This document shows, one piece after another, positions 1 through 38,196 of a DNA stretch of 64,000 bases. The notes under the pieces are model-generated. The model had not been told where the DNA came from, did not search any database, and saw only the letters and a program-made list of their open reading frames with translations. The position numbers and the translations under genes are program-made. Numbering within the stretch: the first letter of the stretch is position 1; each line of letters starts with the position of its first letter. Location of the stretch: positions 62,001 through 126,000 of the forward strand of contig CAIRBK010000072.1 of assembly GCA_903876795.1 (NCBI GenBank). Reading direction: 5' to 3'. Source of the DNA: an uncultured Verrucomicrobiota bacterium. GTDB taxonomy: Bacteria; Verrucomicrobiota; Verrucomicrobiia; Opitutales; Opitutaceae.

Positions 1-523
1 CCCGCGCCGTCAACGCTCCGGGTGCTCCGAAGCCGACGGGTATGAGCAACTGCTCGCAGGCGTGGTGTCCGTGGCGCGTGGCCGCGATCACGCGCCCGGG
101 AAATCGACCAGACTCAAACGCCTCGCGAGCAAACGGGGTCCCGGTGTGCGCGATGATGGTATCGGCCGCATCCGGCGGCAGCGCCAGCAGTCGCGGCAAT
201 TCCTCCAGCAACCAGTGGGCGTAACGCGAGCCGAGGTTGACCGCCGCCACCGCCGTGACTCCGGCGAGCGGCCGGGGCTCGCGGATATACGCATACGTCT
301 GCAGCCAGTGGTGTCCGGGCGGACTGCCGAAATCGTTCGAGATATCCGCAGCGACGGCCGAGCCATCGGGGGCGAGCACGTTGCCGGCGCCATACACGCG
401 CCCGCCGGGCAGACGGACCCAATTGTGAACTGCGGCCTTTGCAGCGGGGAGTGAGCCGCCGAACCGGGCCAACATGGAGCCAAGCGACTCCATGTTGGCG
501 GGCGGCGTCAGGTAAACGGGCAT
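1..523 (-). CDS. GT61-family glycosyltransferase (DUF563), 5' part only
   Basis: The reading frame starts at an ATG at 523 and is still open at the window edge, giving the first 174 residues. Around residues 75-100 it reads VNLGSRYAHWLLEELPRL, close to the (Y/F)xHWLxExLPRL signature that opens the catalytic region of glycosyltransferase family 61, enzymes that usually add xylose or other sugars in surface polysaccharides. No signal peptide or membrane segment is visible, so a cytoplasmic enzyme is likely. The purine-rich stretch CGGAGG lies about 20 bases before the ATG, farther than an ideal ribosome site, so the start is not certain. The acceptor and donor cannot be told from this fragment. 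Its partner genes lie outside the window. Confidence 0.75.
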   Translation of the reverse strand, partial: MPVYLTPPANMESLGSMLARFGGSLPAAKAAVHNWVRLPGGRVYGAGNVLAPDGSAVAADISNDFGSPPGHHWLQTYAYIREPRPLAGVTAVAAVNLGSRYAHWLLEELPRLLALPPDAADTIIAHTGTPFAREAFESGRFPGRVIAATRHGHHACEQLLIPVGFGAPGALTAR

Positions 524-33300: not shown

Positions 33301-33369
33301 TCCGCCATTAACGACATTTCCTAAGGCTCGACGCGCCTGCGCTTAGCATTCTATGCATTGAGGTTATTC

Positions 33370-35529
33370 ATGGACCTCATCGCCGAAGGCCTCGCCAAGA
33401 AACTCATCCGCTTTGAGGACGACAAAAAATACGTCGTTTATCTCGATCAGGCCAAACGCCGCCGCTACGACGCCCCCGAGGAAAAGGTCCAGGTCGAGAC
33501 CTACCTGAAACTCGTCCTCCGCTACAAATACCCTGCCGAGCGCATCCGCTGCTACGTCCCCGTCCAAATGGGTGCCGATAAACGCGAGGCCGACCTCATC
33601 GTTTACGCCGACGACAAGCGCCTGTCCCCGCTCATCGTCGTCGAGTGCAAAGCCGCCGACATCTCCGAACTCGAATTCCTCCGCGCCCGCGACCAAGCCT
33701 CCAGCTACGCCGTCGCCGAGGGCGCCCGCTACCTCTGGACGACCACCGGCCTCAAGGACGCCTACCACGAAATCCCCAAAGGCAAACCCAAGGGCCTCGT
33801 TTCCATCCCCGACATCCCCCAGTGCGGTGTCACCAAGCTCGCCTCCCACAAATTTGCCAAGGGCGGCGGCAAGTCCCCCGAGGGCCAGCAACTCTTCGAC
33901 CTCGTCACCGTCACCGAGGACGAGCTTACCCGCCGCTTCAAACTCGCCCACCAAGCCCTCTGGGGCGGCGGCGAACTCAACCCCTCCGAAGCCTTCGACG
34001 AACTCGACAAACTCATCTTCTGCAAAATCTGGGACGAGCGTAAGGCCCGCAAAAAAGGCGAGGCCTACGATTTCCAGATCATCACCGTCTCCACCCCCGA
34101 GGCCGAGGTCTCCGAGGAGGCCAAGAAAAAAGCCGACGAACAGACTTCCCTCGATCTCCTCAACCGCATCCGCGCCCTCTACGCCGAGGGCCGCAAAAAA
34201 GACCCCGAGGTCTTCAAAGACGAGATTCGCCTCTCCGCCTCCAAGACCCGCACCGTCGTCAGCTACCTGGAGAGCATCAACCTCTCCGCCACCGATCTCG
34301 ACAGCAAGGGCCGCGCCTTCGAGACCTTCCTCGGCTCCTTCTTCCGCGGCGACTTCGGCCAATACTTCACGCCCCGCCCCATCGTGAAATTCATCGTGGA
34401 CGTGCTCCCCATCACCCACGAAACCCGCGTCCTTGACACCTCCTGCGGCAGCGGCGGCTTCCTCCTCCACGCCCTCGACAAGGTCCGTCACCAGGCCGAC
34501 GACTTCCACGCCGACGACCCCGTCAAGCACTACAAGCACTGGCACGACTTCGCCCAGTTCCAGCTCTTCGGCATCGAGATCAACGAGCAGATCGCCCGCA
34601 CCGCCAAGATGAACATGATCATCCACGACGACGGCCACACCAACGTCGTCGCCGCCGACGGCCTGCTCCCGCCCGCCGACATCGTCAAAAAAACCGGCAA
34701 CCCCGGCTTCACCGAAAACGCCTTCGACATCATCCTCACCAACCCGCCCTTCGGCTCCACCGTCCGCCAGACCGAACAGGCCTACTTTAAAAACTACCGC
34801 CTCACCAAGCGCCTTGCCAACTGGCTCGACCCCAAGACCAAGGACGCCGACCGCCCCGCCCAGGACACCGAGGTGCTCTTCCTCGAACAGTGCCACACCT
34901 ACCTGCGCGCCGGCGGCTACCTGGCCATCGTCATCCCCGACGGCATCCTCACCAACTCCTCCCTCGACTACGTCCGCGACAAACTGGAGGAACTCTACCG
35001 CATCGTCGCCGTCGTCTCCCTCCCGCAGACCGCCTTCCAAGTCACCGACGCGGGCGTGAAAAGCTCCGTCCTCTTCCTCAAAAAATGGCACACCGCCGAG
35101 GGTGAAAAAATCGCCACCACCAAACGCCGCCTCCGCGACACCCTCGTGCAGCAGCAGAAACTCGCCGCCACCCTCGACGCCCTCGAAGCCGAGAAAAAGA
35201 AAACCCTCAAAAACCTCGTCGGCTTCACCCCGCCCGACGGCCTCCTCCTTGATGACCCCGCCCTCAAGGACTCGCCCGCCTACCAAATGTGGGCCAAGAG
35301 CGTCAGCGAAGCCCACTCCTCCAAGGTCGATGCCCTCCGCGAACAACTCTCCGAAGCCTACGAGACACAAAAACGCGAGGCATTGAACGACTACCCCGTC
35401 TTCATGGCCATCGCCGAGGAAATCGGCTACGATGCCACCGGCCGCGAAACCAAGACCAATGAGCTCGAGCCCATCGCCAAGGAGCTCGCCCGGTTCATCC
35501 AAGACATCGAGGCGGAGGACGCCGCTTGA
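33370..35529 (+). CDS. Nuclease-methyltransferase fusion subunit of a BcgI-like restriction-modification system
   Basis: The ATG at 33370 has GAGG six bases upstream and gives 719 residues. The N-terminal 160 residues resemble the HsdR_N nuclease fold: Asp75 in READLIVY and the pair Glu92-x-Lys94 in VVECKAAD form a PD-(D/E)xK site. From about residue 310 comes an adenine-N6 methyltransferase with YFTPRPIVKFIVD, SAM motif LDTSCGSGGF near residue 356 and catalytic NPPF at 458-461. A helical tail (about 570-719) likely contacts the specificity subunit. There is no helicase part and no separate hsdR. Nuclease plus methylase in one chain beside a two-domain specificity gene is the layout of type IIB enzymes such as BcgI. 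An incomplete type I system is the alternative. Confidence 0.85.
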   Translation: MDLIAEGLAKKLIRFEDDKKYVVYLDQAKRRRYDAPEEKVQVETYLKLVLRYKYPAERIRCYVPVQMGADKREADLIVYADDKRLSPLIVVECKAADISELEFLRARDQASSYAVAEGARYLWTTTGLKDAYHEIPKGKPKGLVSIPDIPQCGVTKLASHKFAKGGGKSPEGQQLFDLVTVTEDELTRRFKLAHQALWGGGELNPSEAFDELDKLIFCKIWDERKARKKGEAYDFQIITVSTPEAEVSEEAKKKADEQTSLDLLNRIRALYAEGRKKDPEVFKDEIRLSASKTRTVVSYLESINLSATDLDSKGRAFETFLGSFFRGDFGQYFTPRPIVKFIVDVLPITHETRVLDTSCGSGGFLLHALDKVRHQADDFHADDPVKHYKHWHDFAQFQLFGIEINEQIARTAKMNMIIHDDGHTNVVAADGLLPPADIVKKTGNPGFTENAFDIILTNPPFGSTVRQTEQAYFKNYRLTKRLANWLDPKTKDADRPAQDTEVLFLEQCHTYLRAGGYLAIVIPDGILTNSSLDYVRDKLEELYRIVAVVSLPQTAFQVTDAGVKSSVLFLKKWHTAEGEKIATTKRRLRDTLVQQQKLAATLDALEAEKKKTLKNLVGFTPPDGLLLDDPALKDSPAYQMWAKSVSEAHSSKVDALREQLSEAYETQKREALNDYPVFMAIAEEIGYDATGRETKTNELEPIAKELARFIQDIEAEDAA

Positions 35530-36941
35530 GCTTCAAACTCAGCAAGGCCGTTAATCCGGATCGTGTATTCATCACGCGGCGGCCCGACATGGCTAGTCGT
35601 TTGGATCCCTTTTTCTATATTCCCTCAGTTGTTGCCTTGGAAAAGCGAGTACGAGCCGCCGGAGCAAAGCCGTTGAGAACCTTCGTGCGAAGTATTGCTG
35701 GTGGAGCCACACCATCGAAGACCGATGGTGGCCAATACTACACGGATGAAAAACAGGGCGTGCCTTTCGTTCGTGTTCAAAATCTCAACACGACAAGCGA
35801 TCTTTCTTTGGACGACTGTATTTTCATCACCCGAAAAACTCATGATGAAATGCTCGCGCGGAGTCAGGTTGTCGGCGGCGACCTGCTTATCAAAATCACC
35901 GGAGTAGGCCGGATGGCGGTCGCATCGGTTGCGCCCAATGGTTTCGAGGGAAACATCAATCAACATATTGTCGTCTGCAAAACCGGTGATCGTAAGGTCA
36001 GCGAAGCGTTGGCCGCCTATCTTAATCTGGATTTTGTTGAACGCCTCGCCTTCCGACGGGCAACAGGAGGCACCCGACCGGCACTCGACTATCCTGCGCT
36101 TCTTTCCATCCCGGTAATTTTAGATCAACGCGTTCCAGAGCTAAGCCGTATAGCGACTGGTGAATATCTGCGCATGGAAGCAATCGCCCGCCAACTCCTC
36201 GCCAGCATCGACGACCTGCTGCTGACCGAACTCGGCATCCAGCTCCCGCCCGAACCGCCCGCCACCCTCGCGAACCGGGTTTTCCCCCGCCCGTTTTCCG
36301 AACTGACGGGTCGTCGTTTCGACCCTTCATCACACTTACGAAACCTTGATCTCACGGGCGGCAAGTTCCCCGCTTTGCCGCTCACGAAGGTCGCCCAGCT
36401 CAACCCCCGAACCGATTTCTCCCAACTCGAATCCTCGCCCATCTCGTTCGTGCCCATGGAAGCGGTCTCGGACGACCTCGGCGAAGCCGACCGCTCCGCC
36501 ACCCGCCCGGCCAACGCCGCCAAAAGCTACACTCCATTTCAAGAAGGCGACGTGATCTCCGCCAAAATCACCCCCTGCATGGAAAACGGCAAAGCCGCCG
36601 TGCTGCGCGGACTGGTTGGTGGTTATGGCTACGGCTCCACCGAGTATCACGTCTTCCGTCCCGACCCCACGCGTCTGAACGCCGAATATCTCCACGCGCT
36701 GCTGCGACTCCAAACCTTGCGCCGCCACGCCCGCCTTTTCTTCACCGGCTCTGCGGGCCACCAACGCGTCTCAGAGGAGTTTTTCTATCGCCTGCAAATC
36801 CCTGTGCCTCAGTTGAAAAACCAGGAGCGCATCGTCGAAAAGATTGCCGCCCGGCGCGACGAAGCCAAGCGCCTGCGCGCCGCCGCCGCCGCCCAACTCG
36901 CCGCCGCCAAGCTGGAGATCGAGGCGATGATCCTCGGCTAA
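35526..36941 (+). CDS. DNA specificity subunit (HsdS/BcgIB-like)
   Basis: The TTG start overlaps the methylase stop by 4 bases; 471 residues. It contains two target-recognition domains. The first is about residues 20-215, and the second about 240-440, ending in FYRLQIPVPQLKNQERIVEKIAARRDEAKRLRAAA, the usual coiled-coil spacer. An analogous spacer follows the first domain (EYLRMEAIARQLLASIDDLLL). DNA for the first recognition domain (about 35560-36170) is visibly richer in A/T and uses different codons from the second half and from the methylase gene. This suggests the domain was exchanged by recombination. The recognised sequence should be bipartite and cannot be predicted here. Confidence 0.88.
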   Translation: MSFKLSKAVNPDRVFITRRPDMASRLDPFFYIPSVVALEKRVRAAGAKPLRTFVRSIAGGATPSKTDGGQYYTDEKQGVPFVRVQNLNTTSDLSLDDCIFITRKTHDEMLARSQVVGGDLLIKITGVGRMAVASVAPNGFEGNINQHIVVCKTGDRKVSEALAAYLNLDFVERLAFRRATGGTRPALDYPALLSIPVILDQRVPELSRIATGEYLRMEAIARQLLASIDDLLLTELGIQLPPEPPATLANRVFPRPFSELTGRRFDPSSHLRNLDLTGGKFPALPLTKVAQLNPRTDFSQLESSPISFVPMEAVSDDLGEADRSATRPANAAKSYTPFQEGDVISAKITPCMENGKAAVLRGLVGGYGYGSTEYHVFRPDPTRLNAEYLHALLRLQTLRRHARLFFTGSAGHQRVSEEFFYRLQIPVPQLKNQERIVEKIAARRDEAKRLRAAAAAQLAAAKLEIEAMILG

Positions 36942-37086
36942 AGTTTTAAATTGCATGGTATTTCCAAGATTTACTCGTACGATCAACCCTGCCCATTCTC
37001 CCAAAAATGACTTGCACGGCCGCAATAATCCGTAAGTTCTCCTCTATCCAATTTCTACCGTTACGCCCGTAGGCGGGCAAAATTCA

Positions 37087-37116
37087 AACCCGTGTTCCCG
37101 CAATGGAACACGGGTT
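37087..37116 (+). promoter_or_regulatory. Perfect 12-bp hairpin just before the NYN gene
   Basis: AACCCGTGTTCC pairs perfectly with GGAACACGGGTT across a six-base loop. CACTTTTT then leads straight into the ATG at 37125. It has terminator shape but sits 8 bases before a start codon and leaves no room for a normal ribosome site. Confidence 0.65.
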
Positions 37117-37124
37117 CACTTTTT

Positions 37125-37844
37125 ATGAAAAAGAAGGTCGCGATCCTCGTAGACGCCGAGTGGTTCCGGAAAATGCTCAAAGGGGCATTTGCTCCCCGGC
37201 CAGTTCCTTCATCATCAGCCCCGGTGACGCCGCCTGCGCCCTCGGCACCGACGGCTCCCGCCACTCCCGTCGTCGCCATCACCGCCGACCTTTTTTACCG
37301 CAACGCCTGCGCCGCCCTCGATCCGCAGGAGGAGGACTTGTTTCGTTTCTTCTGCTACGACTGCGAACCCTTCGACAAGCAGCAGCGCAATCCTGTCGAT
37401 CAGAGCTGGGTGAAGTTCGGCAAGGGCAACCCGGTTTACGAGGACCGCATGAAGTTTTTCCGTGAGATCGGCGCCCTGCCCTACGTCGCCCTCCGGCGTG
37501 GCGTGGTGAAGGGCCGCGGATGGGAAATCAAAGAGTCGTTCACCAGCCAGTTACTGTCGGCTCCCCACGGCACGGTCACGCTGGCGGCCGGTGACATCCG
37601 CTACGGCATGGAACAGAAGGGCGTCGATATGCGCATCGGCATGGACTTCGCCACTCTCAGCCTGAAACGGCTGGTTGATCGCATCATCTTGATCAGCGGC
37701 GACACCGACATGGTCCCGGCCATCAAGCTCGCCCGCCGGGAGGGCATCCAAGTGTGCATGGTGCAAGTCGGCACTCATGGCCGCCTCGCCCCCACGCTCA
37801 TCGAAGACGCCGATCTCGTTCGCACCATCACGCCGGTGCCTTAA
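37125..37844 (+). CDS. NYN-domain (LabA/PIN-like) putative ribonuclease
   Basis: The product is 239 residues from the ATG at 37125. It begins MKKKVAILVDAEWFRKML, the first acidic residue of an NYN/PIN fold. A Pro/Ala/Ser linker follows, then KGWEIKES-like sequence (GRGWEIKESFTSQL) and KGVDMRIGMDFATLSLKRLVDRIILISGDTDMVPAIKLARREGIQVCMV. In this family the Asp residues of VDAE, KGVDMRIGMD and SGDTD bind the metal for RNA cleavage. Its place beside restriction-modification and vapBC genes suggests a defence or regulatory role, but that is inference. The frame is open to a GTG inside the hairpin upstream, which would add 11 residues; I prefer the ATG. Confidence 0.82.
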   Translation: MKKKVAILVDAEWFRKMLKGAFAPRPVPSSSAPVTPPAPSAPTAPATPVVAITADLFYRNACAALDPQEEDLFRFFCYDCEPFDKQQRNPVDQSWVKFGKGNPVYEDRMKFFREIGALPYVALRRGVVKGRGWEIKESFTSQLLSAPHGTVTLAAGDIRYGMEQKGVDMRIGMDFATLSLKRLVDRIILISGDTDMVPAIKLARREGIQVCMVQVGTHGRLAPTLIEDADLVRTITPVP

Positions 37845-37959
37845 ATGCCACCTAAGCCCAAGACGGTTTCACCGCCTGGCCCGACTTCCTTCGCATAACC
37901 ACCACCGCCCCGGAGCAAAAGCCGGCCCGTTTCCTCCCCGCCCTTGATGCCCACTCCCT

Positions 37960-38196
37960 GTGGATACTCCGTATGCACAAAAGCACGGCCATCCCTTCAC
38001 CTCCAAGGTCTTCAAGTCGGGCAACTCGACCGCCTGCCGCCTGCCCCGCTCCATCAAACTCAAGGCCAAAGCCTACATCATCGAGCACCACGGCGGCAGC
38101 CTCCGCCTGATCGCACCCGCCGCCGAAGCCAAACGGCTCAAGGCTCTGCGCGCCCTGTGGGGTTCCGCGCCGGATTTCCCCGGTCATACCCCGTGA
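37960..38196 (+). CDS. vapB: VapB-type (AbrB-fold) antitoxin
   Basis: The 78-residue product from a GTG start contains SKVFKSGNSTACRLPRSIKLKAKAYIIEHHGGSLRLI, the swapped-hairpin AbrB/MazE DNA-binding pattern of VapB antitoxins (KVFKSGNSxAxRLP). The C-terminal part (WGSAPDFPGHTP) corresponds to the toxin-neutralising arm. The N-terminal leader (MDTPYAQKHGHPF) is longer than usual. The vapC start overlaps its stop by 4 bases, the normal arrangement. The antitoxin looks intact although the toxin is not. Confidence 0.8.
   Translation: MDTPYAQKHGHPFTSKVFKSGNSTACRLPRSIKLKAKAYIIEHHGGSLRLIAPAAEAKRLKALRALWGSAPDFPGHTP

Follow-up and report, generated by a model that had tools for sequence, protein, structure and literature searches.

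The archetype of the Type IIB restriction-modification enzymes is BcgI (CGA N6 TGC), described as an RM fusion, with an N-terminal PD-(D/E)xK domain and a gamma-class methylase in one chain, accompanied by a separate specificity (S) subunit and lacking a motor. Few enzymes of this type have been characterized (28 in REBASE, 16 of them with a sequence, by the count in PMC11997821), and according to the literature they serve in 2b-RAD genotyping. BsaXI (PDB 8w0p, 8w2p and 8w2q) also has its RM and S subunits as two genes. The BsaXI paper (PMC11997821) reports that the enzyme cuts both sides of its site, that cleavage needs its paddle, and that alanine mutants of the REase residues E73, D90, E105 and K107 lose cleavage. 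It adds that the REase domain in the DNA-free entry was positioned from an AlphaFold model, that the REase domain of BcgI fails to superpose on the models of other Type IIB enzymes, and that knob-bearing, paddle-less homologues of less than 800 residues occur among proteins more than 50% identical to BsaXI.

The 64-kb stretch of DNA analysed here (the window) carries two adjacent genes (Table 1) that we read, with a probability of about 0.83, as a Type IIB restriction-modification system, of the RM + S kind, encoded by two genes. The first-pass annotation had called the pair BcgI-like; the class stands, and the label is refined to BsaXI as the nearest solved relative. Membership of the BcgI/BsaXI class is well supported by the anatomy, that is, by the domains, motifs, conserved residues and gene order and by the fold match of the predicted models to BsaXI. 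BcgI itself is likened by its published descriptions, which share with the pair its gene make-up: a fused nuclease-methylase chain, a separate S and no motor. The pair joins a known enzyme class as a new member and is not new in kind. Points against this reading are the low identity to BsaXI, the register of D90 (which lowers our confidence slightly), the absent paddle, the loose superposition and the ranking of the S matches.

Table 1. Features of the RM/S locus and of the DGxHR genes found at related loci.
Feature	Position	Strand	Remarks
RM subunit	33370..35529	+	719 aa from ATG
HSDR_N_2 domain of RM	33475..33819	+	Pfam; residues 36-150 in ATG numbering, 40-154 in TTG frame
RM codons Asp75 to Lys94 (D75, E92, K94)	33592..33651	+	alignments
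RM NPPF methylase motif	34741..34752	+	residues 458-461; alignments
S (specificity) subunit	35526..36941	+	471 aa, TTG start
S TRD1	residues about 30-200		predicted model
S CR1 helix	residues 202-236		predicted model
S TRD2	residues about 283-428		predicted model
S CR2 helix	residues 430-470		predicted model
NYN-domain gene	37092-37844		150 bp downstream of S; Pfam
DGxHR gene	L126:9175-10704		related locus
DGxHR gene	L058:10584-12089		related locus
DGxHR genes			L053, L065, L066, L073, L075, L092, L096, L097, L109, L110, L115, L119, L124, L132, L134

The RM chain leads from an N-terminal PD-(D/E)xK nuclease domain through a helical connector to a gamma-class N6-adenine methylase, so that nuclease and methylase motifs are fused in one chain as in Type IIB enzymes; the chain also has a helical, knob-like insert (about 573-677) and a single C-terminal helix. 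Pfam recognizes HSDR_N_2 (E 7.5e-15) and N6_Mtase (E 9.6e-37). The nuclease residues and the methylase motif in the same chain had already been named from the letters alone, correctly in the ATG numbering, and both are invariant in a 45-sequence alignment. A second possible start is the in-frame TTG at 33358. Among the best-scoring 80 of 431 genome homologues, the first match falls at TTG-frame residue 5 or later in 62 (at residue 5 itself in 41), and for this reason the downstream ATG is favoured. A chance or pseudogene origin was rejected, since neither frame is interrupted, the D/E/K triad is conserved and third-position G+C is 0.86 in RM (0.65, and less telling, in S).

By sequence profile, Foldseek and VIA-align alike, BsaXI is the nearest solved structure to RM. 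A profile built from 45 homologues aligns with RM.BsaXI from profile position 9 to 698 (HMMER, E 4.6e-56). For the predicted RM structure (mean pLDDT 85.9, pTM 0.74), three BsaXI entries take the top three places in Foldseek (E 4.6e-28 to 3.7e-26). VIA-align, whose lists are Foldseek matches re-ranked and nothing beyond, gives them Z scores of 29.1, 29.0 and 28.0 (for 8w0p_A, 29.0 over 634 residues at rmsd 7.7), and the next matches, 2okc_A and 5ybb_A (Z 23.8), leave out the nuclease domain, starting beyond it at residues 184 and 180. Identity is low (22% by Foldseek, 25-27% by VIA-align), and the Foldseek superposition of the whole chain is loose (TM 0.51-0.56 on the query, rmsd 13-18), as would be expected of mobile domains. 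In the HMMER alignment, read by eye, E105 and K107 of BsaXI align on E92 and K94 of the window, while D90 lies two residues off D75, the D-to-E spacing being 15 in BsaXI and 17 here. BsaXI E73 falls on Tyr62; its part might be taken by E37 of the window RM, a residue kept in 80 of 82 sequences (the best 80 of 431 relatives, the viral locus L053 and the window), with gaps in the other two.

The two RM chains share the nuclease, the helical connector, the methylase and a helical insert at the knob position, but differ in size (719 residues against 916 in BsaXI) and in how they end. In the place of the knob the window model has helices 575-595, 598-614 and 636-671, between strands 565-572 and 678-681, and the stretches flanking this insert align in a profile alignment to those around the BsaXI knob. 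The predicted insert corresponds to the knob of the BsaXI subgroup, lying, if the strands are numbered correctly on the model, between methylase strands 7 and 8. At its C-terminus BsaXI has a long antiparallel two-helix paddle, which is absent from the window model; the latter ends after one helix of about 20 residues (699-718). With no paddle but an intact N-terminal triad, the chain probably cuts by its nuclease domains alone, which fits hypothesis 2 or 3 as set out in the BsaXI paper (PMC11997821). A relative that lacks the paddle lends itself to testing how these enzymes break four strands at each site.

The start of S overlaps the stop of RM by 4 bp (TTGA), as first noted. Its model (mean pLDDT 88.9) has two target-recognition domains (TRDs) and two long helices in the order TRD1-CR1-TRD2-CR2, in agreement with the two domains proposed earlier and with the two TRDs and two CR helices of the BsaXI S. 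A separate S with two opposed TRDs, as predicted by the model, is a further feature of Type IIB. Pfam matches Methylase_S in the second half only (E 6.1e-07), and a BLAST search of one half of S against the other gave no significant repeat, so that the evidence for two TRDs comes from the model, the HMMs and exchanges of TRDs among relatives. The TRD1 of the window recurs at the second TRD position of the S at L120 (48% identity over 11-197), and at L094 a TRD1 of the window type is present without TRD2; these contexts suggest a modular specificity. Structural matches of the S model (VIA-align Z) are led by PacII (23.4) and the Type I S 1yf2 (20.4), followed by EcoR124 (17.2), EcoKI (17.0) and BsaXI (16.9). 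A sequence search with S found two Type I S chains alone at E below 0.01, and did not find the BsaXI S at E up to 1. Since PacII and a Type I S rank above BsaXI, S does not single out BsaXI. An enzyme resembling Type IIG, cutting on one side of its site only, would have the same domain order, and cleavage geometry cannot be read from sequence; the two modelled TRDs and the two-sided cutting of BsaXI, the nearest solved relative, nevertheless make such an enzyme highly improbable here.

Relatives were collected by scanning genome_contigs (84,980 species) with the patterns IFCKIWD and AKMNMII, both outside the nuclease domain. Of 431 confirmed relatives the best-scoring 80 were studied, together with the viral contig L053 (81 loci; 82 sequences with the window), so that conservation is measured among close relatives. 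Their record titles name Pseudomonadota, Bacteroidota, cyanobacteria, Acidobacteria, Clostridia and others, and the best segment of each is 52-65% identical to RM. In these 82 sequences NPPF is kept throughout and the D/E/K triad in all but one (L076, which has a gap there); the loss of nuclease residues in close homologues that the first-pass annotation had named as evidence against its reading was therefore not seen. At 73 of the 81 loci RM is followed on its own strand by an ORF of the S cluster (ORF starts in this count are mechanical), within 100 bp of RM at 53 and 100-2000 bp away at 20, in several of which a gene intervenes; the exact 4-bp overlap occurs at 21 of the 53 close loci. Of the other eight loci, five encode chains of 964-1206 aa, two (L108 and L053) lie at contig ends, and at L091 no S-cluster ORF was found. 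One of the long chains, L061 (1171 aa), joins RM to S and contains two Methylase_S stretches, the arrangement seen in single-chain Type IIB enzymes of the AloI/CjeI kind, whereas the window genes are separate; the other four may, by their length, be RM-S fusions too. In the plasmid collection 1579 records match, 2 of them over at least 80% of the query, with a best identity of 52%, and two scans of viral_contigs each returned one locus, L053. With its 80 close genome relatives (the best 80 of 431) and modular S, the family is a source of new specificities.

Some of these loci show additional genes. At four of the 81 (L082, L088, L105 and L128) a gene of about 150 aa stands between RM and S. 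The one scanned, at L088, is an IS200-type transposase, and S can therefore be parted from RM by insertion. One neighbour cluster recurs at seven of the 81 loci (L074, L079, L091, L094, L107, L111 and L112); both members scanned (L074 and L079) are RhuM, which is also found in the Type I-like island of the window genome.

The absence of an hsdR gene, as first reported, is correct for the locus, where the neighbours are a DUF892 gene upstream and an NYN gene downstream, but not for the genome (3.57 Mb, 103 contigs, 98% complete). Contig C83 encodes an HsdR of 1018 aa (about 122221-125277) with HSDR_N, SWI2/SNF2 and EcoR124_C domains. The RM chain could thus be the HsdM of a Type I system whose HsdR is encoded elsewhere, a pairing that the first-pass annotation had itself named as counting against its proposal. 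In PADLOC the chain scores best against a model with the label Type I methyltransferase (E 1.1e-181), and the M core and S fold are like those of Type I systems (EcoKI, EcoR124) and PacII; unlike in these, the nuclease of the window is fused to M. Moreover, in the draft genome no S domain but that of the window exceeds the Pfam cut-off, which leaves some doubt about the S partner of the C83 HsdR. However, an hsdM N-terminal stretch lies about 8 kb downstream of this HsdR near the end of C83 (133359-133943, stopping before the contig end), and an hsdM C-terminal stretch is on contig C58; the simplest reading is that the HsdR belongs with these pieces and not with the window pair. Only one of the 81 related loci (the best 80 of 431 and L053) matches the C83 HsdR, at 24.8% identity over a stretch whose end is some 4.6 kb upstream of RM, in a search with one HsdR query and flanks of unequal length. 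Nor does a Type I M subunit need an invariant PD-(D/E)xK site of its own. A Type I assignment is accordingly very unlikely, and a Type IIB pair remains the preferred reading. Pfam found no ATP-dependent translocase in RM, S or three neighbours, and own-genome searches gave no other HSDR_N or HSDR_N_2 match within the window.

The HsdR gene lies in a Type I-like island (L007:5222-17271, G000:C83), where it is followed in order by genes for an SMC/AAA protein, a Schlafen-AlbA protein, RhuM and a DUF1016 nuclease and then by the hsdM piece. The window genome has a second HSDR_N_2-methylase ORF (L008:4008-7145, G000:C80:16007-19144), in which the nuclease domain is N-terminally truncated (the profile starts at 48 of 110). 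An efflux-pump-like gene (by eye) is its neighbour, and downstream comes a 436-aa ORF that is S-like by eye and has no Pfam match. A third ORF (L009:3-1736, G000:C78, minus strand), with weak HSDR_N/HSDR_N_2 and N6_Mtase matches, runs off the contig start.

Both proteins also have significant matches to MADS components. In the NCBIfam scan, which within the window covered the RM, S and NYN proteins only, the MAD2 model scores 282.6 bits on RM (and matches each of the 45 aligned homologues at E up to 0.001) and the MAD5 model scores 41.1 bits on S. These scores could point to a MADS-related, methylation-centred defence complex whose N-terminal domain works for other partners, yet they are far under the curated cut-offs of 720 and 400 bits and the nuclease triad is kept, so there is very little to be said for that explanation over a Type IIB enzyme.

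For the Type IIB pair, a mode of action can be proposed from the anatomy of the pair and the Type IIB literature (PMC11997821, PMC9159934, PMC4081073, PMC3874165). We infer by analogy that RM and S form a complex that both methylates and cleaves. Two RM subunits would dock on one S (2RM:1S), which would read both halves of a bipartite DNA site, one with each TRD. The NPPF domain would complete hemimethylated sites by AdoMet-dependent, protective m6A formation at one adenine per strand. At unmethylated sites the N-terminal PD-(D/E)xK domains would cleave at short, fixed distances, most likely on either side of the site and probably after two enzyme-bound sites have met, and no ATP-driven motor would be used.

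G+C over 34001-38000 is 0.60, the lowest among the 2-kb bins of the window (others 0.63-0.71). The family scan gave no close copy of RM in 12 other genomes of the same genus (best E 6.7e-26), and the top match among the 251 other genomes of the family shows 34% identity across residues 29-576. The low local G+C and the lack of a close copy in same-genus genomes suggest that the pair was gained horizontally. To its right, an M29 peptidase is found in 11 of the 12 same-genus genomes. In stretches of 4-11 kb taken from upstream of M29 in nine of these 11 (some cut by contig ends), M29 alone of ten window proteins was matched; the left flank is therefore not syntenic and no insertion boundary can be drawn. 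The NYN gene was set aside as a third component, having no homologue at the 81 related loci at E 1e-6.

At 17 of the 81 related loci (the best 80 of 431 and L053), an adjoining gene encodes a DndB-like protein with a DGxHR motif, which is present in all 17. The gene is placed either between RM and S or directly behind S (at L053, directly behind RM), and its product is mostly 476-525 aa long; at L053 and L124 it runs off the contig, and at L109 it is a short ORF. All four proteins scanned match a DGQHR-domain HMM, below its cut-off, and three of the four weakly match TIR 'Effector' close to the C-terminus. No literature joining DGQHR with a TIR domain and restriction-modification was found, nor did a literature search on HSDR_N_2 find any. 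As a thread to follow, this gene beside RM and S is perhaps more novel than the pair. A tentative extension, which we think possible though doubtful, is that the window RM and its relatives (the best 80 of 431, 53-65% identity) form a separate, uncharacterized Type IIB subfamily with a knob, no paddle and a single C-terminal helix. In it both double-strand breaks would be the work of the nuclease domains alone, and roughly one locus in five would have recruited a DGxHR (DndB-like) protein, in some cases with a TIR-like end, as a second layer of defence.

L053 is a viral contig of 7.8 kb with terminase- and portal-like ORFs (labelled by eye), on which a full-length RM homologue, 54% identical, is followed by the DGxHR gene at the contig end. 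On a plasmid of Leisingera thetidis (NZ_CP109788.1, L054:6106-8349), where no ORF of more than 149 aa, and hence no S gene, precedes the next annotated gene, a single ORF without a nuclease domain starts as the first half of an RM-like methylase, continues as a DGxHR protein and is, to judge from its sequence, an in-frame fusion or deletion product.
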